Shown here one piece after another: positions 3,690-17,068 of a DNA stretch of 64,000 bases. The DNA is from Pedobacter schmidteae (GTDB taxonomy: Bacteria > Bacteroidota > Bacteroidia > Sphingobacteriales > Sphingobacteriaceae), in NCBI RefSeq assembly GCF_900564155.1, contig NZ_LS999839.1:4027097-4091096 (forward strand), in the 5' to 3' direction. Every line of letters starts with the position of its first letter. The stretch's first letter is position 1. A program made the position numbers and the translations under genes. The notes beneath the pieces were generated by a model, which saw only the letters and a list, made by a program, of their open reading frames with translations, ran no database searches and was not told where the DNA came from.

Positions 3690-4484
3690 TTAGGGATTTG
3701 TATTTATAGCAACGTTGCGTGGGATAAAAAAGTGTGTCAATGTGCGTGGATTTGTGTACACATCCGAGTTGATCTCAAACACCTCATAAATGTTTTTGGT
3801 ACTTAGTACCTCGGCCACGGTTCCATCGTACCATTTTCTCCCATTTTTTAGCATAATGATACGATCTGCGTATTGGGCGGCCAGGTTGATGTCGTGCAAA
3901 ATGGTAACAACCATAAAACCCCTTTTGGTCAGCATTTTTGCAATTGCCAGGGTTTGTTGCTGATATTGCAAATCCAGACTGGCCACAGGTTCATCCATCA
4001 GCAGCAAGGCATTGGGAATATCCCAGATCTGGGCCAGTACGCGAGCCAGTTGTACCCGTTGCTGTTCGCCACCCGACAGGCTAAGGTAAGACCGATCGGC
4101 AAATGCCGCAATGCCTGTAAGCTCCATAACTGCTATTGCAATATCCTGATCTTTTAAAGAGGGAGTGTTGCGGTAATGTGGATAGCGACCCATCATTACA
4201 ATTTCCAGTACGGTAAAGGCCATGTTGACAATGTTTTGCTGATTCAATACCGCACGTTTTAGCGCCAGCTGGCTTATGGTGTATTCGGTAACACACTTGT
4301 CCTGCAGTTTTACCGTGCCCGAAACCGGTGATTTTTCGCCACTGAGCAGCCTGAATAGAGTTGATTTTCCGGCCCCGTTTGCGCCCAGTATCACCAGTAG
4401 TTCGCCAGGTCGGATGCTAAAGGAAATGTCTTTTACCAATGCTCTTTTTCCTACTTTATAGGTTAATGAATCTGCTACCAACAT
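3690..4484 (-). CDS. hmuV: Heme ABC transporter ATP-binding protein HmuV
   Basis: ATPase subunit (264 residues) of the inner-membrane heme importer. Walker A is GANGAGKST (residues 34-42), the ABC signature LSGGEQQR (136-143), Walker B LLLMDEP with D164/E165, and the switch His is H197 in LHD. The ALLLMDEPVASLDLQYQ and AAQYADRI stretches are characteristic of HmuV/FecE-type ATPases. It starts 1 bp after hmuU ends, so translation is coupled. It forms a three-gene operon with hmuU and hmuT, divergent from the TonB receptor at 6696. Length is normal. Confidence 0.93.
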   Translation of the reverse strand: MLVADSLTYKVGKRALVKDISFSIRPGELLVILGANGAGKSTLFRLLSGEKSPVSGTVKLQDKCVTEYTISQLALKRAVLNQQNIVNMAFTVLEIVMMGRYPHYRNTPSLKDQDIAIAVMELTGIAAFADRSYLSLSGGEQQRVQLARVLAQIWDIPNALLLMDEPVASLDLQYQQQTLAIAKMLTKRGFMVVTILHDINLAAQYADRIIMLKNGRKWYDGTVAEVLSTKNIYEVFEINSDVYTNPRTLTHFFIPRNVAINTNP

Positions 4485-4485
4485 A

Positions 4486-5532
4486 TTATAAAACGAGTTT
4501 CTTCTTGTCTTTGATTAAAATGTATAAAAAAAGAGGGGTACCCAATAGAGCTGTGATTACACCTATGGGTAGTTCTATTGGGGCAATAACCGTTCGGCAA
4601 AGCATATCGGCCAGGGTAAGCATTAATGCCCCGAATAGTGCCGAAGCAGGCAGTACATGTTTATTGTCGACCCCAATCAGCAATCTAATCGTATGAGGCA
4701 CCAGCAAACCTACAAAGCCGATGATGCCGGACACGGCCACCGATGCGCCAACTGCCATGGTTGCCAGGATCACTACATTTCTTTTGATGGTAGCTACTTT
4801 TAAGCCCAGCTGCGCGGCCTGGTTTTCGCCCAGTGCAAAGGCATTTAAAGCTTTGCCCATACGCGGCAGCAGGATTATAGGGATAGTGATAAATGGCAAT
4901 ACTGCCATTACTGTTTCCCAGGTAGCGCCGCCAAGACTACCCAACATCCAGAAGGTGATGTTTCTCAATTGTTGATCATCAGCCGCAAAAGTGATGAGCC
5001 CTGTTAATGCCCCTGCAAGCGCATTTATGGCAATTCCTGCCAGTAACATCGTAGCTACGTTTGATTTGCCATCGGTACGTGAAATCTGATAAACAATCAA
5101 CGCAGCTATTCCCGCGCCGGCAAAAGCACCGAAAGCCAATAGGTAATACCCTAATAGATTACTTAAGCTGGTCAATAGGCTAATTTCCAGCACGATAATA
5201 ACGACAGCGAGTAAAGATGCACCTGCTGAAATGCCAATCAAACCGGGCTCGGCCAGTGGATTTCTGAAAATGCCTTGAATTGCTGTGCCGGATATGCCCA
5301 ATGCAGCGCCTACCAGTATGCCGAGTATCACTCTGGGCAGACGCACGATATTCATGACACCCTCATACTGTACAGAAACCACTTTAGTGCCAAACAAGCC
5401 TATTTTTTTTCCAAGAATAACAAAAACATCTGATATGGGTATTTTTACGGCACCGAGGCTCATCGAAAAAGCAGCAGCAATCAGTAGCGCAAGGGACAAC
5501 GATACATACAGAAAGAACCTTCTTTTTACCAT
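4486..5532 (-). CDS. hmuU: Heme ABC transporter permease HmuU (FecCD family)
   Basis: Inner-membrane permease (348 residues) of the FecCD/BtuC family with about ten hydrophobic segments. Family landmarks are LPRVILGILVGAALGISG near residues 65-85, NPLAEPGLIGISAGAS, and the C-terminal GFVGLLVPHTIRLLIG, where the ATPase docks. ATG at 5532 lies inside the last 7 bases of hmuT, so the two genes are translationally coupled. With hmuT and hmuV it forms a complete periplasm-to-cytosol heme transporter, supplying the heme oxygenase encoded at 10536. Confidence 0.93.
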   Translation of the reverse strand: MVKRRFFLYVSLSLALLIAAAFSMSLGAVKIPISDVFVILGKKIGLFGTKVVSVQYEGVMNIVRLPRVILGILVGAALGISGTAIQGIFRNPLAEPGLIGISAGASLLAVVIIVLEISLLTSLSNLLGYYLLAFGAFAGAGIAALIVYQISRTDGKSNVATMLLAGIAINALAGALTGLITFAADDQQLRNITFWMLGSLGGATWETVMAVLPFITIPIILLPRMGKALNAFALGENQAAQLGLKVATIKRNVVILATMAVGASVAVSGIIGFVGLLVPHTIRLLIGVDNKHVLPASALFGALMLTLADMLCRTVIAPIELPIGVITALLGTPLFLYILIKDKKKLVL

Positions 5533-6353
5533 TTACTGTTCAATTCGGTAATCGCCTGCGCCAGTCTGACCGAGAAGTTGATCAGCAGATCGCCATCCAT
5601 TTCCACTATTCTTTTATTTTTTCCGGCATTGGTTAATGCTACTCCAGGCATTTTCAAAATGCTGGTGATGCCGCCCAGACTTTTGTAGCCAAAATCAAAC
5701 ATCAGGATGATATCAGGATTGGCACTCACCAATGCCTCAGTTGTATAAGGTTTGAATTTAGAGAATCCTTGTGCAGCATTTTTGCCCCCCGAAATCCTGA
5801 TGATAGCATCCATACTGGTATCTTTTCCAGCAACCATCATCACACCGGTTCCCCGGGCATAAAGGAACAATACTTTAGGCGATTTGGGGTTTTTCTTTAC
5901 CGTTTCCAAAGCCTTATTTACCGCTAATGTGGTTTGTTTAATCAGCTGTTCGCCTTTTGTACGCTGATCTACTGCTATAGCCACCTGACGGATAAAGTTT
6001 AGCGCGCCTTCAGCGCTAAATTCCTGTTTAATGACAACGACTTTTATTCTTGCTGATTTTAATTGGTATTCTACAGCCTTGGCAATCATATTATCAGGCG
6101 CCAGCACCAGGTCGGGCGAGAAGGAAATGATGCCTTCGGCAGATATGGCCCGGTCTTTACTTACTTTAGGCACTTTATTGATATAAGCAGGGTAGGCACT
6201 GGTCACATCAACGGCAACAATCTGCTGACCAAGTCCCAATGCATCTACTGTTTCGGTAAGGGCTGCACTTAAAGTTATGATCCGTTTAGGAACAGTTGCA
6301 TTGGCCATATGGCCAAATAATATGAGGAGTAAAAAGGAGAATATTTTCTTCAT
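5526..6353 (-). CDS. hmuT: Heme-binding periplasmic protein HmuT
   Basis: Periplasmic binding protein (275 residues) of the TroA-like fold that hands heme to HmuUV. A signal peptide is clear (MKKIFSFLLLILFGHMANA). The mature protein starts with VPKRIITLSAALTETVDALG, the canonical opening of heme/B12 binding proteins, followed by AISAEGIISFSPDLVLAPDN. No lipobox Cys is present, so it should be soluble. It is the first gene of the leftward hmuTUV operon. The promoter region at 6384-6417 carries a TTCCTTTG box and a copy of the element found at the two rightward heme promoters. Confidence 0.92.
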   Translation of the reverse strand: MKKIFSFLLLILFGHMANATVPKRIITLSAALTETVDALGLGQQIVAVDVTSAYPAYINKVPKVSKDRAISAEGIISFSPDLVLAPDNMIAKAVEYQLKSARIKVVVIKQEFSAEGALNFIRQVAIAVDQRTKGEQLIKQTTLAVNKALETVKKNPKSPKVLFLYARGTGVMMVAGKDTSMDAIIRISGGKNAAQGFSKFKPYTTEALVSANPDIILMFDFGYKSLGGITSILKMPGVALTNAGKNKRIVEMDGDLLINFSVRLAQAITELNSKW

Positions 6354-6383
6354 TATATGTTTTTTTATGCTTGGTTGGTTTTA

Positions 6384-6417
6384 CAAAGGAAGCTTTAATT
6401 AAAATCATTCCAAATAA
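6384..6417 (-). promoter_or_regulatory. hmuTUV promoter with candidate iron/heme operator
   Basis: On the - strand a TTCCTTTG box (6384-6391, one mismatch to TAnnTTTG) lies about 30 bp before the hmuT ATG. Just upstream, 6395-6417 holds a 23-bp element starting TTATTTGGAATGATT. It matches 18 of 23 positions of the element at 12245-12267. Placement next to the -7 box suits a regulator. A Fur-like role is inferred; no Fur gene is in the window. A further short palindrome, ACCGTTGCTTAACGGT, lies at 6421-6436. Confidence 0.45.
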
Positions 6418-6566
6418 TTTACCGTTGCTTAACGGTATCGGTATTTTTCGTTTTTCCGTTTTTTTTGCTTGCTATTGATGTTGTGATTTATTTTTAATGT
6501 TCTTTTATTTAGAGGTTTACGTAGTTATTTTTTTGTGCAGTCTATTGTCGTTTGATTGGTAGTATT

Positions 6567-6690
6567 GGTTAAAATTATCCTGATTCCGTTAACATAATCC
6601 CGAAATGGTTAAAAATAATCCGGATCACGTTGCCGGATTATTGACAAATGTAAGCATATTTGTGATCTTATTTAGACTGGTTAAAAATAA
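6567..6690 (+). promoter_or_regulatory. hmuR promoter module (duplicated at 12176-12267)
   Basis: The 342-bp gap between divergent hmuT and hmuR holds this module. GGTTAAAATTATCC (6567-6580) and GGTTAAAAATAATCC (6607-6621) are two related elements 40 bp apart. A 10-bp inverted repeat, AATAATCCGG (6614-6623) and CCGGATTATT (6633-6642), flanks 9 bp. A CATATTTG box (6655-6662, one mismatch to TAnnTTTG) follows. Then comes the 23-bp element TTATTT-N11-AAATAA (6668-6690), ending 5 bp before the start codon. Block 6599-6690 recurs at 12176-12267 with the same internal spacing. Inference: the upstream elements bind the AraC regulator encoded in the operon, and the downstream element is a repressor site over the transcription start. 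Confidence 0.6.
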
Positions 6691-6695
6691 CTTCT

Positions 6696-9062
6696 ATGCC
6701 CACGTGTAATTATTCTGTGATTAAAAACGTCCTGTTTATGGTATTGCTGCTGCTGGTGGATGTTGTTCGGGCGGACGATACAAAAGGAAGATTAACAGGA
6801 ATAGTGTTGGATGAATTGGGGAAGCCTATGGCTGGAATTACAGTGTCGCTTCAGCCCGACTACAGGAAGGCATTGAGCGATGAGAAGGGTAAATTTAGTA
6901 TAACCGGTTTGTATGCAGGAATCTATACTCTGACCGTAAATGCAATAGGTTTTGAAAGCCACCGACAGGAAATTGAGCTTACCGGAGGGCATACGCTGGT
7001 CATTACTATTCAGTTGAAACGGGGTAACAAAGCTTTAAATGAAGTGAGCATAAATAGCCATCATAGTAATCCTGATAATTTCATTGATATGGTCCGCACG
7101 GCAATGCCAAGCAAAGTGATCAGTCGCCAGGAAATTGAAATGATGGGTAGCAGAAGACTTGACGAGGTGCTAAAAGAGCAAACCGGGCTGGCCATGGTGA
7201 ATGATATTGGCTCGGGCAGCAGGGCAATAGGTTTGCAAATGCAGGGTTTTAGCAGTGGTTATACCATGATTATGATAGACGGGCAACCTATGGTGGGCCG
7301 CAACAATGGCAACCTGGATTTGTCGAGGATCACCGTTTCCAATATCGAGCGGATAGAGATCATCAAAGGTGCTTCTTCCTGTCTGTTTGGAAGCGAAGCG
7401 CTTGCCGGTGTAATCAATATTGTGACCAGAAAAAATATTACTCAGCCACAGGCAATGGCCGCATTGCGTTACGGGAGTTTTAGCATGCTTGATGCGACGC
7501 TTGAGGGAGAAACTCCTTTTGCAGGTAAAAAAGGATCGGCCTATTTGTCGGCCAACTATTACCGTACAGATGGTTTTAATGCCAATCCCTATCTTAATGA
7601 GGGCAAAACTGCACCGCCATTTAACAGTCTGGCTTTGCAGGGCAGAGGGCGATACCTGTTGAGCGAAAAAAGTGCGATTAACCTAAATGGACGATATGTG
7701 ACCCGGCATTCGGACAATCAGATTTCGTATGGGGTAAAGCCTAGCAGGGATGTATTGGATGAAAAGGATTTGAACGGTTCGGTGGCATTGAACAATAATT
7801 TTAATAATGGATTAAAGTTAAAAACGCAGTATTATTTAACCAATTATCAGACCAGACAGAACATCACCGATTTAACCAGTGGAACCGTTATGCCCGGAAA
7901 CCAATTTGATCAGTATCTGCATCGGGCCGAAGTACAGGGAGCAAAACAATTTTCTGACGCACTAGAGCTTACCGGTGGTGTAGGGGGGGCTTATGAACTG
8001 CTAAATAACACTGCCTATCGTAATACCAAGAGCATGGCCAATTATTTTGGGTATGCACAGGCCAATTGGCAGGCTGCCAGTCAGCTGTCGGTAACAGCGG
8101 GTGCACGTTATGATTACCATGATAAATATGGTGCAAAAGTAAATCCAAGTATTGGGTTACAATATAGTCCATACACTAATTTTACACTGAAAGCTGCTGT
8201 AGGTAGCGGTTTTAAGACACCTAATTTCCAGCAGTTGTACATGGTGTTTACCAATCTTCAAACCGGTTATACTGTTTTGGGTGCCGAGGAGTTCTGGCGT
8301 GAACTGAAGCTTTTGCAAGATGCAGGCCAGATTCTGAATGTATTTTCTTCGGCACAAAATGTTGGTCAGCTGAAACCCGAACGTTCGGTATCCTATAGCG
8401 GAGGGTTCAATTATAGTCCTATAGCCAGTGTAAAACTGGATGTCAATGTGTTTTATAATGACATGAAGAACTTTATCAACTCTGAGCAGGTAGCGGTAAA
8501 AGCCAACAATCAGCAGGTTTTTTCCTATATGAATATCGCCAGGGCATATACTACCGGTGTGGAGATGGGAGTAGGTTGGGCAGCTACCAGATCGATAAAT
8601 ATTTCTGCCGGTTACCAATTGCTTTATGCGGTGGACAAGGGGGTGGTCGACTCTATAAAGAATGGTACCGGTTTATATGGTTCCGTATATGACACTGATA
8701 TCAATGATGTTAGAAAATCAACCCGCAAGGATTATTTCGGCCTAAATAACCGTTCCCGTCATATGGCAAACATCAAAGCTAGTTACAGTCACGAACGATC
8801 TGGTATTACGGGAACTTTCAGGGTCAACTATCGCAGTAAATATGGTTTTTCTGAAGACAATAAGGGCAATAAGTTTTTAGACCCTTATGATACTTATGTC
8901 CGCAGTTTCTTTTTGCTGAATGCTGCGGTACAAAAGACATTTTATAACAAGCATTTACAGTTGCAGCTAACGGCAGACAACCTGATGAACTATCGTGATC
9001 AGTTGATGCCGGCACAGCAGGGCCGGGCTATAGTTGCTGGCGTCAGTTGGCGTTTTTTTTAA
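6696..9062 (+). CDS. hmuR: TonB-dependent heme receptor, HmuR-like
   Basis: Outer-membrane heme receptor of 788 residues. A signal peptide is followed by a carboxypeptidase-regulatory-like domain (about residues 31-110), a plug domain (about 125-240, with MQGFSSGYTMIMIDGQPM and IEIIKGASSCLFGSEALAGVINIVTR), and a 22-strand barrel ending in an aromatic residue (SWRFF). GFKTPNFQQLY (near 505) sits where heme receptors have the FRAP box, and QLKPERS (near 558) where they have NPxL. The gene heads an operon with two HmuY lipoproteins, heme oxygenase and an AraC regulator. Heme specificity comes mainly from that context; a siderophore receptor is the less likely alternative. Confidence 0.88.
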   Translation: MPTCNYSVIKNVLFMVLLLLVDVVRADDTKGRLTGIVLDELGKPMAGITVSLQPDYRKALSDEKGKFSITGLYAGIYTLTVNAIGFESHRQEIELTGGHTLVITIQLKRGNKALNEVSINSHHSNPDNFIDMVRTAMPSKVISRQEIEMMGSRRLDEVLKEQTGLAMVNDIGSGSRAIGLQMQGFSSGYTMIMIDGQPMVGRNNGNLDLSRITVSNIERIEIIKGASSCLFGSEALAGVINIVTRKNITQPQAMAALRYGSFSMLDATLEGETPFAGKKGSAYLSANYYRTDGFNANPYLNEGKTAPPFNSLALQGRGRYLLSEKSAINLNGRYVTRHSDNQISYGVKPSRDVLDEKDLNGSVALNNNFNNGLKLKTQYYLTNYQTRQNITDLTSGTVMPGNQFDQYLHRAEVQGAKQFSDALELTGGVGGAYELLNNTAYRNTKSMANYFGYAQANWQAASQLSVTAGARYDYHDKYGAKVNPSIGLQYSPYTNFTLKAAVGSGFKTPNFQQLYMVFTNLQTGYTVLGAEEFWRELKLLQDAGQILNVFSSAQNVGQLKPERSVSYSGGFNYSPIASVKLDVNVFYNDMKNFINSEQVAVKANNQQVFSYMNIARAYTTGVEMGVGWAATRSINISAGYQLLYAVDKGVVDSIKNGTGLYGSVYDTDINDVRKSTRKDYFGLNNRSRHMANIKASYSHERSGITGTFRVNYRSKYGFSEDNKGNKFLDPYDTYVRSFFLLNAAVQKTFYNKHLQLQLTADNLMNYRDQLMPAQQGRAIVAGVSWRFF

Positions 9063-9080
9063 GATTGAAAACCGAATGAT

Positions 9081-9761
9081 ATGATCAAAAAAACAGATAT
9101 GAGAAAGCGCAAATTAATACAAGGAGTGGCCATATTGGCCATGCTGACCGTGATGGCTTCCTGTACCAAGGAAGAAATAAAACCAGTATTGGAAGATGGG
9201 CTAAGTACAGTGGTAAAAGACATTCCCGGAGATGTGGGGAATACAGTGGGCGGTACAAAACCCTTTGAGATTTTTTATTTCAGCCTTAAAACGGGGGCAA
9301 AAGTTGATAAAAGTAAGTTACTGACCGCCGACTGGGACCTGGCCTTTGCAAAGGAATACAATTCCTACGTATCCGTTAACAATGGTACCAACGACCAGAG
9401 CTATGGCTTTGGTGGACCTGGAAAAGGGGGGATGGTAGTGGTAAATCAGGCTTACGATGCGGTTAAGACAGCTCCATCTGATGAGGCGTTTACCACCAAT
9501 GGAATTACCGCTGCCGGATGGGATTCGGGAAACGGCAATGGCTGGTATTTTTATGAACTGAACACTCATATTGCAGTGCCGATTAAAAATAGAACCTATG
9601 TACTGCGTACTGCCGAAGGTAAATATGCAAAATTACAAATGGTAAGCATGTATAAAGGTGCACCAGCTACGGTGACCGATTTGAACTGGCCGGCGCCCTA
9701 TTTTACCTTCCGGTATTATGTACAGCAGGACGGAAGCAGAAACCTGTCTACCAAAGACTAA
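9081..9761 (+). CDS. HmuY-family heme-binding lipoprotein (copy 1)
   Basis: Putative hemophore-like lipoprotein, 226 residues from ATG 9081. ATG 9099 gives a more typical signal (MRKRKLIQG...) and is equally possible. The lipobox is VMASC, with the Cys followed by TKEE, a Lys-acidic pattern that resembles the surface-export signal known in Capnocytophaga lipoproteins. The HmuY core is visible: DWDLAF, a Gly/Asn-rich loop, GWYFYELNTH, then RTYVLRTAEGKYAKLQMVS and YFTFRYYVQQDGSR. HmuY of Porphyromonas gingivalis binds heme through two His; here the His in NTHIAVP aligns with a His in both other copies. It starts 18 bp after hmuR. Confidence 0.88.
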   Translation: MIKKTDMRKRKLIQGVAILAMLTVMASCTKEEIKPVLEDGLSTVVKDIPGDVGNTVGGTKPFEIFYFSLKTGAKVDKSKLLTADWDLAFAKEYNSYVSVNNGTNDQSYGFGGPGKGGMVVVNQAYDAVKTAPSDEAFTTNGITAAGWDSGNGNGWYFYELNTHIAVPIKNRTYVLRTAEGKYAKLQMVSMYKGAPATVTDLNWPAPYFTFRYYVQQDGSRNLSTKD

Positions 9762-9796
9762 ATCAATAGATTATCCATTTAATATTATATTTTTTT

Positions 9797-10498
9797 ATGA
9801 ACTATTTAAAAACTGTTAAAATCTGCAGCTTATTGCTTAGCACAGTTGTCATTGTTGCCTCTTGTAAAAAAGACAAAAAGGAAGAAGAACCAACCGTAGC
9901 TCCGTATTATTATAAACTGGAACGGATTGAGAATTTCAGTTCCAGTGTTACAGGCGCAACTACCATTTATTTTAATTTTGCCAACAAGAAAGAGGTAGCT
10001 GCAAGTCAGGCAAAAACCAATGATTGGGATATGGCTTTCGGAGGACTTCTGGCTAGTTTTGTGAGCGGAAATAATGGGGCCGACGCTGTAAATTATGGTA
10101 CTGGTGGTACCGCAGTTGGCGGGGCATTGGTGATAGAAAAACCATTTGATGAAGTAACCGATATACCTGCTTCGGCGGGCTTTAAAACCGGAAAAGATTT
10201 ATTTGGGATGGACAAAGAAGGCGCACGTGCTGACGGAATTGGCTGGTATTTGTATGACGAAACCGGACTGATAAGAGGAGATGGAAGCGCGCGTAAAAAA
10301 CATGTGGTGTATGCCATGCCCGAAAAACGTACCGTAGTTATCCGCGCTGCTAATGGCGACTTTGTAAAAGTGAAAATGATAAGCTGTTATAAAGATGCTT
10401 TTACAGCCGATAAATGGTTCATCGATAGCACTAAGATGTTTTATACGTTTGAATATGTAATCGTGCCTAAAGGCAGTACCAAATTTGTAATTAAATAA
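9797..10498 (+). CDS. HmuY-family heme-binding lipoprotein (copy 2)
   Basis: Second HmuY-like lipoprotein, 233 residues. The signal peptide ends in VIVASC, followed by KKDKKEEE, strongly charged and consistent with surface export. Shared core motifs are NDWDMAFGG, SFVSGNNG, GWYLYDETG, KKHVVYAMP, RTVVIRAANGDFVKVKMISCYKDAF and FYTFEYV. It is closer to the copy at 12281 than to its immediate neighbour at 9081; both carry SCYKDAFT and end in KGSTKF. It sits 35 bp after copy 1 in the hmuR operon. Sequence alone cannot tell which residues bind heme; the conserved His in KKHVVYA and the Met after it are candidates. Confidence 0.87.
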   Translation: MNYLKTVKICSLLLSTVVIVASCKKDKKEEEPTVAPYYYKLERIENFSSSVTGATTIYFNFANKKEVAASQAKTNDWDMAFGGLLASFVSGNNGADAVNYGTGGTAVGGALVIEKPFDEVTDIPASAGFKTGKDLFGMDKEGARADGIGWYLYDETGLIRGDGSARKKHVVYAMPEKRTVVIRAANGDFVKVKMISCYKDAFTADKWFIDSTKMFYTFEYVIVPKGSTKFVIK

Positions 10499-10535
10499 TT
10501 AACCCGAAAATTTAACACCTTAAATTCATAAACAT

Positions 10536-11096
10536 ATGTTAAGCAATTCCATTAAAGAAGCGACTAAAGAAGCGCACCAGAACCTGGAAAAAAAAGTAGT
10601 GGTAAAAATGAAAGCCATCCGTAGTGACGCCGATTATGCTGATTTTTTAAAGCATTTTTATGCCTATTTCAATGAGGTTGAACAAGCGATTGCCCCTTAT
10701 ATCAACACCGGATTGTTACCTGACTATGCCGAGCGCCGCAATTCTGCTTACCTGAAAAAAGACATTGAAGAATTGGGTGGAAGCACCAATGATTTACCTG
10801 CTGCACAGGCACCGGAAATTACGAATACGATACAGGCCCTGGGTGCTTTGTATGTGATGGAAGGTTCTATTATGGGGGGACCAATCATTGTAAAGATGCT
10901 GGAGAAATTTGGAATCACTAAAGGAGTATCCTTCTTTTCGGGATATGGAGAGGCAACCGGACAAATGTGGGGTAAGTTTATTGCAGTGTTAAATGCGCAG
11001 GCAAAAAACGAAACTGAAGAAGCTCAGGCTATTGCTACCGCCAACGGTACATTTTCACAATTCGGAGAAGTATTTGGCGAAGTGAGCGTAGTCTGA
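10536..11096 (+). CDS. Biliverdin-producing heme oxygenase
   Basis: Cytosolic heme oxygenase (186 residues), which opens the heme ring to biliverdin, CO and iron. H14 in KEAHQNLEK is the expected proximal heme ligand, and ALYVMEGSIMGGPIIV matches the distal glycine-rich helix. Length is at the small end of the bacterial HemO/HmuO family. It lies 37 bp after the second HmuY gene in the hmuR operon. Import and degradation of heme are therefore encoded together, the strongest argument that the island uses heme as an iron source. Confidence 0.92.
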   Translation: MLSNSIKEATKEAHQNLEKKVVVKMKAIRSDADYADFLKHFYAYFNEVEQAIAPYINTGLLPDYAERRNSAYLKKDIEELGGSTNDLPAAQAPEITNTIQALGALYVMEGSIMGGPIIVKMLEKFGITKGVSFFSGYGEATGQMWGKFIAVLNAQAKNETEEAQAIATANGTFSQFGEVFGEVSVV

Positions 11097-11124
11097 AAAG
11101 TTCCGCTAAAAGATATACACGCTC

Positions 11125-12120
11125 ATGAAAATAAAATCTAAAATTGAAGGGTCGGACGAGTGGTTGTTCATTGAAGAAATTCCTGAACGTTACTCGCCCA
11201 GTGCCCCGCTCTCAGAAAAAAATGTGAACATTAAAAGCCTGCCGGCGCAAAAACTGGTAAACTACCAGCTTAGCGCAGGGGGCTTGTTCCTTGTGCACTC
11301 TACCATGCAATTTAATGCCAGTGTTAAAGTGCTTTCGGAAATAGAAGGAGAGACCATTACCTCTCAGTTCATTTTTTATGGCCCCAATCTGAATGCCGTT
11401 AAAAAGGAGGTCAAAAGTAGCCGCCGGGAGGGTAGCAGACACAATATCCGGTATATCCCATCCATAAAAGGCAAATACCCAATGGTACCTGATATAGAGT
11501 ACAAGTACTTTCTGCTGGTGTTATCCAAAGAATATTATTTTCACCTGATTGATCAGCATTCGCTGCTGCATAGCGATTTTGTCCGCGAAATTTTAAAAGG
11601 GAAATATACCTCATTTGCTGCAAAAGATCTTCCGGTAACCACCGAAATGAAAAGGGTGATCAATGATATTTGTGAATGTAAAAGAACAGGCGAGCTAAAA
11701 AGGTTGCATACAGAATCGAAGATTTTGGAACTGCTGATGCTGCAACTGGAACAAATGCAATCGGGGGTAGAGGTTGATAAATACCTGATCAAGCAGGATG
11801 ATTTAAAAAAAATAGAACATGCCCGCGATATTTTGGACGCCTCCTATACCTATCCGCCTACCATTATTGAGCTTTCTAAACAGGTTGCGCTAAACGAATT
11901 TAAGCTCAAAAGAGGCTTTAAGGAATATTACGGGACAACCATTTATGGTTATGTAACCCGGCTTAGGATGGAAGAAGCCAGAAGGCTGATTCTGGACGAA
12001 CGGAAAAGTGTGGGGCAGGTTGCTGCCGCTGTTGGCTTTAACCATCAAAGTCATCTTACAGATGCATTTAAACGTTATTTCGGTATTCTACCCAGCGAAA
12101 TTAAATCCAACGAGGACTAA
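11125..12120 (+). CDS. AraC-family regulator, PchR-like
   Basis: Transcriptional regulator of 331 residues, with a ligand-sensing N-terminal half and an AraC/XylS DNA-binding domain at about 230-328. The second helix-turn-helix segment (SVGQVAAAVGFNHQSHLTDAFKRYFGILPSEI) and the preceding ALNEFKLKRGFKEYYGTTIYGYV resemble the PchR group, which activates siderophore or heme uptake genes. It is last in the hmuR operon, 28 bp after heme oxygenase. The next unit begins within 160 bp. Inference: it activates both heme units through the shared GGTTAAAAATAATCC element. Confidence 0.88.
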   Translation: MKIKSKIEGSDEWLFIEEIPERYSPSAPLSEKNVNIKSLPAQKLVNYQLSAGGLFLVHSTMQFNASVKVLSEIEGETITSQFIFYGPNLNAVKKEVKSSRREGSRHNIRYIPSIKGKYPMVPDIEYKYFLLVLSKEYYFHLIDQHSLLHSDFVREILKGKYTSFAAKDLPVTTEMKRVINDICECKRTGELKRLHTESKILELLMLQLEQMQSGVEVDKYLIKQDDLKKIEHARDILDASYTYPPTIIELSKQVALNEFKLKRGFKEYYGTTIYGYVTRLRMEEARRLILDERKSVGQVAAAVGFNHQSHLTDAFKRYFGILPSEIKSNED

Positions 12121-12175
12121 TGATATCGTTCCCTGCAATCATTGATCCCATATCCATAAAATGGACGATTTCTAT

Positions 12176-12267
12176 CCCGAAATGGTTAAAAATAATCCGG
12201 TTTCCGATAACAGATTCTATTTTATAGTACGCATATTTGTTTTGTTATTTAGACTGATTAAAAATAA
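12176..12267 (+). promoter_or_regulatory. Second copy of the 92-bp heme promoter module
   Basis: This block repeats 6599-6690. The first 25 bp (12176-12200) are identical, the CATATTTG box (12232-12239) is identical and at the same distance, and the terminal 23-bp element (12245-12267) differs at one base. By hand count about 72 of 92 positions match, with no gap. It drives hmuY copy 3. An ATG at 12161 opens a frame through this block into hmuY3, but the duplicated regulatory sequence shows the true start is downstream. Confidence 0.65.
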
Positions 12268-12280
12268 GTACAAATCAAAT

Positions 12281-13060
12281 ATGCTTAATATAATGAAACA
12301 TTCACGTTTAGCAGGATTACATAGTTTCCTGTTTTTCTCTTTGTCTATGGCTGCATTCAGTACCATATTTACCAGTTGTTCGGAGAAGGATATTGCCGAA
12401 CCCGAAAAGGAGGTAGAAGTAGTTGTATTTAACAAACTGCTCAAGGTAGAGAATTTTGCCATGGAAACTGATGATAAGAACCCTACAGTATCTAAAACGG
12501 CCGTTTATTATAGCCTGGAAGACCGAAAAGATATCGCCTTGGTAAATGCCAAAACCACCCGCTGGGATATTGCCTTCAACGGTCTTTACAACAGTTTCAT
12601 TTCGGGTAACAATGGTAAAAATGAAGCTAATGCTGGTTTTGGGTCTAACGGAGTAGGTGGTGTAATGATTGTACAAAAACCTTACGACGAGGTGATAGAC
12701 ATTCCGGCCGACAGTGAGTTTAAAACCGGAAACGGATTGATCGGTACAGATGATGCCGGTGCATTTGGACAAGGAACTGGCTGGTACCTGTACGATTTTG
12801 GAGGTTCTATTGTTGCAACGGGAGCAGACAAGCAACATGTAGCTTACGCCTTGGGGAATCCGCTGAAACTGCTTAACGGAACTACCATCCCAGCCCGAAC
12901 TATTATTGTACGCACGGCCAAAGGTAACTATGCAAAGATCAAGATGATCAGTTGTTATAAAGATGCTTTTACACCTGATCTGTGGTTCAAAAACACACCG
13001 CATATGTATTTTACTTTTGAATATACGCTTGCTCAAAAAGGAAGCACAAAATTTAAATAA
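12281..13060 (+). CDS. HmuY-family heme-binding lipoprotein (copy 3)
   Basis: Third HmuY-like lipoprotein, 259 residues from ATG 12281 (ATG 12293 also possible). The frame stays open upstream through the promoter module, which is not coding. The signal peptide ends IFTSC, followed by SEKDIAEPEKE. Core motifs are RWDIAFNG, SFISGNNG, GWYLYDFGG, KQHVAYALG, RTIIVRTAKGNYAKIKMISCYKDAF and YFTFEYT. It is the first gene of the second rightward heme unit, 18 bp before the next lipoprotein gene. Nearest relative in the window is copy 2. Separate transcription under the same module suggests duplication of promoter and gene together. Confidence 0.87.
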   Translation: MLNIMKHSRLAGLHSFLFFSLSMAAFSTIFTSCSEKDIAEPEKEVEVVVFNKLLKVENFAMETDDKNPTVSKTAVYYSLEDRKDIALVNAKTTRWDIAFNGLYNSFISGNNGKNEANAGFGSNGVGGVMIVQKPYDEVIDIPADSEFKTGNGLIGTDDAGAFGQGTGWYLYDFGGSIVATGADKQHVAYALGNPLKLLNGTTIPARTIIVRTAKGNYAKIKMISCYKDAFTPDLWFKNTPHMYFTFEYTLAQKGSTKFK

Positions 13061-15796: not shown

Positions 15797-17068
15797 ATGA
15801 AATATAAAGTTTACTGGATCATAGCAATAGCATTTGCATTGGGCTGTAAAAAAGATAGCCTCATTGACAATGATGCACCTATTTCACCAACTACAGGTAC
15901 ACGTAAACAATTTACGCTGGATTCGATTTTTCTGTATGCCAGGCAGACTTATCTGTGGAATGAGGCATTGCCTTCCTATGCTGATTTTGATCCGCGTAAC
16001 CGCTACGCGGCCTTATCACCCGATTTGAAAGCGTTTAAGCAAGAACTGTTTGACATCAGTCAACTGAAGTTAAATCCCTTAACCGGTAAAGCTTACGAAT
16101 TCTTATCGGGTAGCGGTTGGGCAAAATATTCCTACATGCAGCAGGGCGCACTTGCCGGACAAAAGACAGCCGGGACTACTGTAGCTACTGTTGCTGTACT
16201 GGAAAAGAAGTTGATACAGCAGTCTGGCAAGACCGTTGCCTATCTGGCTGTGGGTGCATTTCCTTCATTAAATAGCTGCAAAGCAGAGCTGGATGTTGCT
16301 TTTACAGAATTTTCGGCTACACAACCTGAAGATTTAGTTATCGATCTAAGAAGCAATACCGGGGGATATGTAGAAACGGCTGAGTATTTGGCTAATCTGA
16401 TAGTACCTTCAGCATTGAATGGTAAGTTGATGTATAGCGAACAATACAACCCGCTGATGCAAAGTGGAAAAGCCGTTATTTTAAAGCATCAGCCTTATCT
16501 GGATAGCAATGGAAAAACGGTACTTTACAATGGGCGGTTGGCCACCATGGCGGATGTGGATTATACCGAAGCCGTTAACAGCTATAAGTTTAGTAAAAAG
16601 GGGAAACTGGAAAGTGTTAAGAATATTTATTTCATCGTATCCAATCGTACAGCATCAGCTAGCGAAATGCTCATTAGTTGCATGAAACCCTATTTTAAAG
16701 TCGTGCTGGCTGGCGAACCCACCTATGGCAAGCCTGTAGGCTTTTTCGGGATTCAGGTAGCGGAATATATAGTTTATCTGTCGGGTTTTTTGATCCGAAA
16801 TGCCGATGGTTGGTCTGATTATTTTAATGGGATGGGGGTGGATATTGCGGTTGCACCAACATCAAATGCGGTATTGGGAGATTCTGCTGAACCATGCTTA
16901 GGTGCCGTATTGGCCAGCATAAATGGTCATGCAATTTCTGCTGTAGGCTATACTGGCATTAAACAGAACCGGTTAATGAACATACCTTCAACCCTCAACG
17001 ATGCTGAAACACCAGAAGGAGCTGAAGGTATGATAGAAAATCGATTAAAATTTAAAAGCAGGAATTAG
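15797..17068 (+). CDS. S41-family peptidase lipoprotein without a PDZ domain
   Basis: Serine peptidase of family S41 (C-terminal processing peptidase type), 423 residues. It is lipid-anchored by FALGC, followed by KKDSL. The catalytic dyad is S287 in NRTASASEM and K312 in TYGKPVG, 25 residues apart as in Tsp and CtpA. The core strand EDLVIDLRSNTGGYVETAEYLANL is typical. The usual PDZ domain is not visible; the N-terminal part is a helical S41 N-domain and a short linker. It is the last gene of the hmuY3 unit, and its stop overlaps the stop of the convergent DUF1080 gene by 4 bp. Inference: it may cut hemoproteins or process the lipoproteins of the locus. Confidence 0.85.
   Translation: MKYKVYWIIAIAFALGCKKDSLIDNDAPISPTTGTRKQFTLDSIFLYARQTYLWNEALPSYADFDPRNRYAALSPDLKAFKQELFDISQLKLNPLTGKAYEFLSGSGWAKYSYMQQGALAGQKTAGTTVATVAVLEKKLIQQSGKTVAYLAVGAFPSLNSCKAELDVAFTEFSATQPEDLVIDLRSNTGGYVETAEYLANLIVPSALNGKLMYSEQYNPLMQSGKAVILKHQPYLDSNGKTVLYNGRLATMADVDYTEAVNSYKFSKKGKLESVKNIYFIVSNRTASASEMLISCMKPYFKVVLAGEPTYGKPVGFFGIQVAEYIVYLSGFLIRNADGWSDYFNGMGVDIAVAPTSNAVLGDSAEPCLGAVLASINGHAISAVGYTGIKQNRLMNIPSTLNDAETPEGAEGMIENRLKFKSRN

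Follow-up and report, generated by a model that had tools for sequence, protein, structure and literature searches.

The known AraC-family activators of iron uptake include YbtA, PchR, AlcR, MpeR and DesR (PMC7600106). Like the locus discussed here, these systems place an AraC regulator next to genes for outer-membrane iron receptors, alongside Fur, yet they belong to Proteobacteria and concern siderophore biosynthesis or receptors, whereas the present locus brings together receptor, HmuY and heme-oxygenase genes in the Bacteroidota (PMC7600106). On the side of gene content the closest described systems are Porphyromonas gingivalis hmuYR and Flavobacterium psychrophilum hfpRY, which likewise combine an HmuY-type hemophore with a TonB receptor under iron control (PMC10434189, PMC6613475, PMC9331221); the Flavobacterium HmuY-type operon is iron-repressed (PMC9331221). 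The regulators reported for hmuYR differ from those predicted here, being CdhR and the non-canonical PgFur, and the accessible parts of these hmuYR and hfpRY accounts mention no tandem operator served by an AraC activator (PMC10434189, PMC6613475, PMC9331221). One of them calls the regulation of HmuY operons in Bacteroidota poorly understood (PMC10434189), and a literature search with subscription journals largely outside its coverage found no description of AraC regulators of HmuY operons. Dual control by AraC and Fur, already known from siderophore systems (PMC7600106), seems from the sequence to operate here on heme-uptake genes of Pedobacter and its relatives, which are soil bacteria.

The window, by which we mean the whole stretch of 64,000 nucleotides analysed, comes from a Pedobacter genome of 6.2 Mb. 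Two heme units and a set of divergent transporter genes make up the gene setting:

3690-6353, minus strand: hmuTUV heme ABC transporter genes, divergent (HmuV over the cut-off for NF010068, heme ABC ATPase; HmuT matching Peripla_BP_2)
6696-9062, plus strand: HmuR-like TonB-dependent receptor, opening unit 1 (plug and beta-barrel domains by Pfam)
9096-9761, plus strand: HmuY-family gene (PF14064, E=2.8e-10)
9797-10498, plus strand: HmuY-family gene (PF14064, E=5.1e-6, barely above the cut-off)
10536-11096, plus strand: heme oxygenase (PF01126, E=1.7e-16)
11125-12120, plus strand: AraC-family regulator, cupin-like N-terminal domain and double HTH (HTH_18, E=1.7e-23)
12292-13060, plus strand: gene for an HmuY-family lipoprotein, opening unit 2 (PF14064, E=3e-8)

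Scores of 41.0, 27.1 and 34.4 bits against a cut-off of 27 place the three PF14064 genes in the HmuY family, and the HmuY, heme-oxygenase and heme-ABC matches point to heme as the substrate. The third HmuY gene starts at 12280 or 12292; its longest open reading frame, from an ATG at 12161, would enclose the promoter, and automatic annotation may miscall the start. The second heme unit ends with an S41-type peptidase gene (15797-17068), and S41 matches in L047-L062 show this peptidase gene to be frequently retained in the heme loci of relatives.

The regulator encoded between the two promoter blocks had been called a PchR-type AraC protein in the preliminary description. Membership in the AraC family stands: the double HTH is recognised by PF12833 (HTH_18) with 83.1 bits against a cut-off of 33.6 (E=1.7e-23). 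In the predicted structure (pLDDT 80) the DNA-binding domain reaches Z scores up to 15.0, and a beta-rich, cupin-like N-terminal domain resembles, with moderate scores, those of BgaR (Z 8.4, 138 residues) and AraC (Z 7.0, 148 residues), as for a cupin-type sensor and dimerisation domain. Beyond family and fold the PchR label finds no support; NCBIfam matches to other AraC regulators cover the C-terminal part only and stay below cut-off, and in a search of solved structures by sequence the matches were confined to the HTH domain. Across 54 orthologs the residues that never or hardly ever vary include H106 and H149, which we regard as candidate ligand residues only. Family scans recognise this gene as the sole DNA-binding protein of the locus. 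AraC-family genes are plentiful in these genomes, with 23 matches in the window's own.

Both heme units are preceded by a related block of 92 bp. By hand count, 6599-6690 and 12176-12267 had been found to agree, ungapped, at about 72 of 92 positions, and comparison within the window gives exactly this number. The next best ungapped match to the block in the window reaches 45 of 92 (mean 24.5, SD 4.4) and the best on the reverse strand 44, so the match between the two blocks is real and above chance. Its reported details hold as well: the first 25 bp are identical, with identity beginning at 6597, two bases before the start given earlier; CATATTTG is the same at 6655-6662 and 12232-12239; and a single mismatch separates the two versions of the terminal 23 bp. 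A repetitive element was considered and rejected because the pattern of the first island occurs in the whole genome at these two places only. The elements that we distinguish upstream of the units are as follows:

6395-6417, minus strand: separate predicted Fur box for the divergent hmuTUV, with no AraC repeats alongside
6577-6592, plus strand: unit 1 predicted distal half-site R1, ATCCTGATTCCGTTAA, 20 bp before R2
6597-6612, plus strand: unit 1 predicted half-site R2, ATCCCGAAATGGTTAA, the same in both copies
6618-6633, plus strand: unit 1 predicted proximal half-site R3, ATCCGGATCACGTTGC, 21 bp after R2 and beginning 37 bp before the -7 box
6655-6662, plus strand: unit 1 putative -7 box, CATATTTG, TAnnTTTG with one mismatch; probable start site at about 6667
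6668-6690, plus strand: unit 1 predicted Fur box, TTATTTAGACTGGTTAAAAATAA, fitting the genome-wide iron-gene motif, at about +2 to +24
12174-12189, plus strand: unit 2 predicted half-site R2
12195-12210, plus strand: unit 2 predicted proximal half-site R3, ATCCGGTTTCCGATAA
12232-12239, plus strand: unit 2 putative -7 box, CATATTTG; probable start site at about 12244
12245-12267, plus strand: unit 2 predicted Fur box, TTATTTAGACTGATTAAAAATAA, with zero mismatches to the Fur pattern

This anatomy emerged from a promoter comparison across 13 named Pedobacter and three Mucilaginibacter loci. The predicted AraC operator consists of two or three direct half-sites with the consensus ATCC-N6-SGTTAA at a pitch of 20-21 bp, in keeping with the direct repeats some two helical turns apart to which AraC/XylS regulators bind. 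Half-sites, -7 box and Fur box are kept in all 13 Pedobacter loci, where R1 too is retained upstream of the receptor gene, and recur in altered form in the three Mucilaginibacter loci. Conservation of the islands between flanks that mostly fail to align, which is the comparison across relatives that had been proposed as a check, thus bears out the earlier suggestion that they are protein-binding sites under selection. The 31 bp described as largely diverged do, however, contain, at fixed spacing, the 3' portion of one more conserved half-site (CGTTGC, 6628-6633): R3, the third, had been missed. In copy 1 a perfect inverted repeat, AATAATCCGG ... CCGGATTATT, spans R3 and the following spacer (6613-6645); it is lost in copy 2 and in most relatives.

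The idea that one module drives both heme units was correct in that both share the block, yet the AraC-binding module would be only a part of a compound promoter. The first island is likely bound by AraC, while the middle one appears to be the -7 box and the last a Fur box. A pattern for the latter finds 29 matches in the genome against one for the reversed control, and precedes feoAB, ferritins, TonB receptors, hemA and aconitase, named by eye from their translations, as well as hmuT. The genome encodes three Fur-family proteins, and the box is, as expected of a Fur operator, a palindromic A+T-rich site common to its iron genes. Reading all three islands as AraC sites was rejected because the last one also precedes unrelated iron genes; this 23-bp island is a predicted Fur box. 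With a core promoter in the middle and a Fur box at the end, the promoter would therefore have two regulators.

The start-site map of Flavobacterium psychrophilum gives a -7 consensus of TAnnTTTG at -12 to -5 (PMC9723704). Judged by this Flavobacterium consensus, CATATTTG agrees at five of six specified bases, with the mismatch at the first T, in a fixed register; receptor promoters of Sphingobacterium have a weaker box. If the box is taken as -12 to -5, the proximal half-site would be centred at about -41.5, the position of a class-II activator. A similar placement of the proximal site is seen in class-II activation by an AraC-family protein in the RamA complex (7bef), the position in the window being deduced from the -7 box.

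The geometry is rigid on this side of the promoter. Among 54 scorable promoters, which share descent, 52 have a proximal half-site that begins 37 bp ahead of the -7 box, within an allowed range of about 24-49 and with four unscorable promoters left out. The distance from half-site to Fur box, in contrast, floats between 48 and 55 bp in these 52 promoters. Sequence upstream of the Fur box matches itself best at a lag of 20/21, and in one clade also at 42; the 20/21 peak is absent from 23 control Fur promoters. The 37 bp recur in four further genomes, of which two belong to another family of the class; here the half-site frame was chosen by eye before scripting, and two of the four have a -7 box with one mismatch.

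Which protein reads the half-sites? The pattern of R2 and the start of R3 has 21 matches in 145 Pedobacter genomes, confined to exactly the 18 that carry an AraC ortholog at least 80% identical and lying within about 10 kb of that gene; the other 127 genomes have none, nor does the reversed control. The operator moves with AraC and the receptor in a single unit, however, and co-occurrence alone therefore cannot name AraC as the binder. Receptor promoters of AraC-lacking Pedobacter proved useless as a control for separating AraC from its locus because the receptor is missing there: only one of 37 such genomes has even a distant receptor match.

Stronger evidence comes from recoding. Pedobacter loci whose AraC proteins are 45-57% identical carry AATACGGATTGMACAAA repeats in the corresponding place, Sphingobacterium loci carry the type TTTTGCATACA, and L093, L083 and L094 are intermediate. 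Mapped on the AraC tree, half-site type needs six changes for seven groups, the minimum possible, compared with a mean of 27.6 after shuffling. The recognition helices of two measured Pedobacter orthologs are 93-100% identical to those of the window's protein, while HTH2 outside the clade falls to 44-75%. It is thus probable that the half-sites are the operator of the adjacent AraC protein.

Taken together, the block is very probably a complete dual-control promoter that joins class-II AraC activation to Fur repression at the start site. The evidence consists of the sites, their spacing, their conservation and their co-variation with AraC, all read from sequence, and from these we infer binding, direction of regulation, start sites and ligand. 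The locus-encoded AraC protein would bind the 16-bp direct half-sites every 20-21 bp; at the proximal one, which would span about -49 to -34 and overlap the -33 region, it could touch RNA polymerase at the CATATTTG -7 box. In iron-replete cells transcription would be blocked by Fur seated on the start-site palindrome of 23 bp. Low iron would remove Fur, after which AraC could activate once its cupin domain senses a ligand; heme, or a product of its uptake, is the probable one. Since AraC is encoded inside unit 1, activation would be self-reinforcing. Such a scheme lays out in concrete terms how heme uptake may be wired in Bacteroidota.

Other accounts of the block have to be weighed against this one. 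Of all its elements the Fur box has the best support, and HmuY operons are known to be repressed by iron (PMC9331221), which could speak for a promoter with Fur alone: regulation would act through the last island only, and the upstream ones would form a curvature or UP-like element to which no specific activator belongs. Direct repeats every 21 bp, held at 37 bp from the -7 box, are at odds with this, as are a recoding of half-sites that tracks the AraC clade and the lack of repeats in the 23 control Fur promoters, which include the own promoters of the other clade's AraC genes; we consider it improbable. Slightly better chances, though still poor ones, go to another DNA-binding protein, encoded elsewhere, as reader of the repeats. 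In favour of this, these genomes hold many AraC-family genes (the 23 matches above are from the window's own); the pattern, however, is found only beside this AraC gene, family scans recognised no second DNA-binding protein in the locus, and half-site type tracks AraC phylogeny even in three paralogous loci of one genome.

Could the two blocks simply be a recent duplication, undiverged and free of selection? Copy 2 is restricted to some relatives, namely the window, L047 and L051, with a variant in L050, L052 and L053. Between the islands, nonetheless, the copy 2 sequences of the window and L047 have bases in common where copy 1 reads differently, which makes the copies appear older than the split of these two species, and the islands persist across genera where the flanks are unalignable or saturated. 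We give this explanation almost no weight, and equally little to a transcribed leader element, a riboregulator in place of DNA operators. The last island would indeed fall in the 5' leader, but the half-sites lie upstream of the presumed start, the Fur-box motif also precedes unrelated iron genes, and an Rfam scan of 6300-12500 gave no match.

Starting from the dual AraC and Fur promoter, a wider generalisation may be entertained tentatively, with the balance somewhat against it. A family-wide, heme-sensing cupin-type AraC, often beside a heme oxygenase, would govern HmuY heme uptake in Sphingobacteriaceae and certain relatives. Its promoter would be rigid, with repeats every 21 bp, 37 bp up to the -7 box and a floating Fur box, and the half-site letters alone would be rewritten, together with the recognition helices. 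If true, the rigid-promoter family would be a natural series from which AraC specificity could be decoded. The recoded operators, readable and constant in geometry, make with their AraC proteins a comparative set that is useful for predicting binding specificity.

Genome G063 encodes three AraC paralogs, in loci L083, L085 and L094, each beside its own half-site variant, a natural test of operator insulation. In the other Pedobacter AraC clade (L078-L097) a Fur box of its own, but no tandem repeat, accompanies the regulator gene, and this AraC would therefore be iron-controlled and not self-activating, unlike that of the window. Finally, in L050, L052 and L053 a second, variant module stands near 11720-11836 ahead of another HmuY-family gene; its half-sites lie 48 bp from CATATTTG and not 37, one helical turn more.
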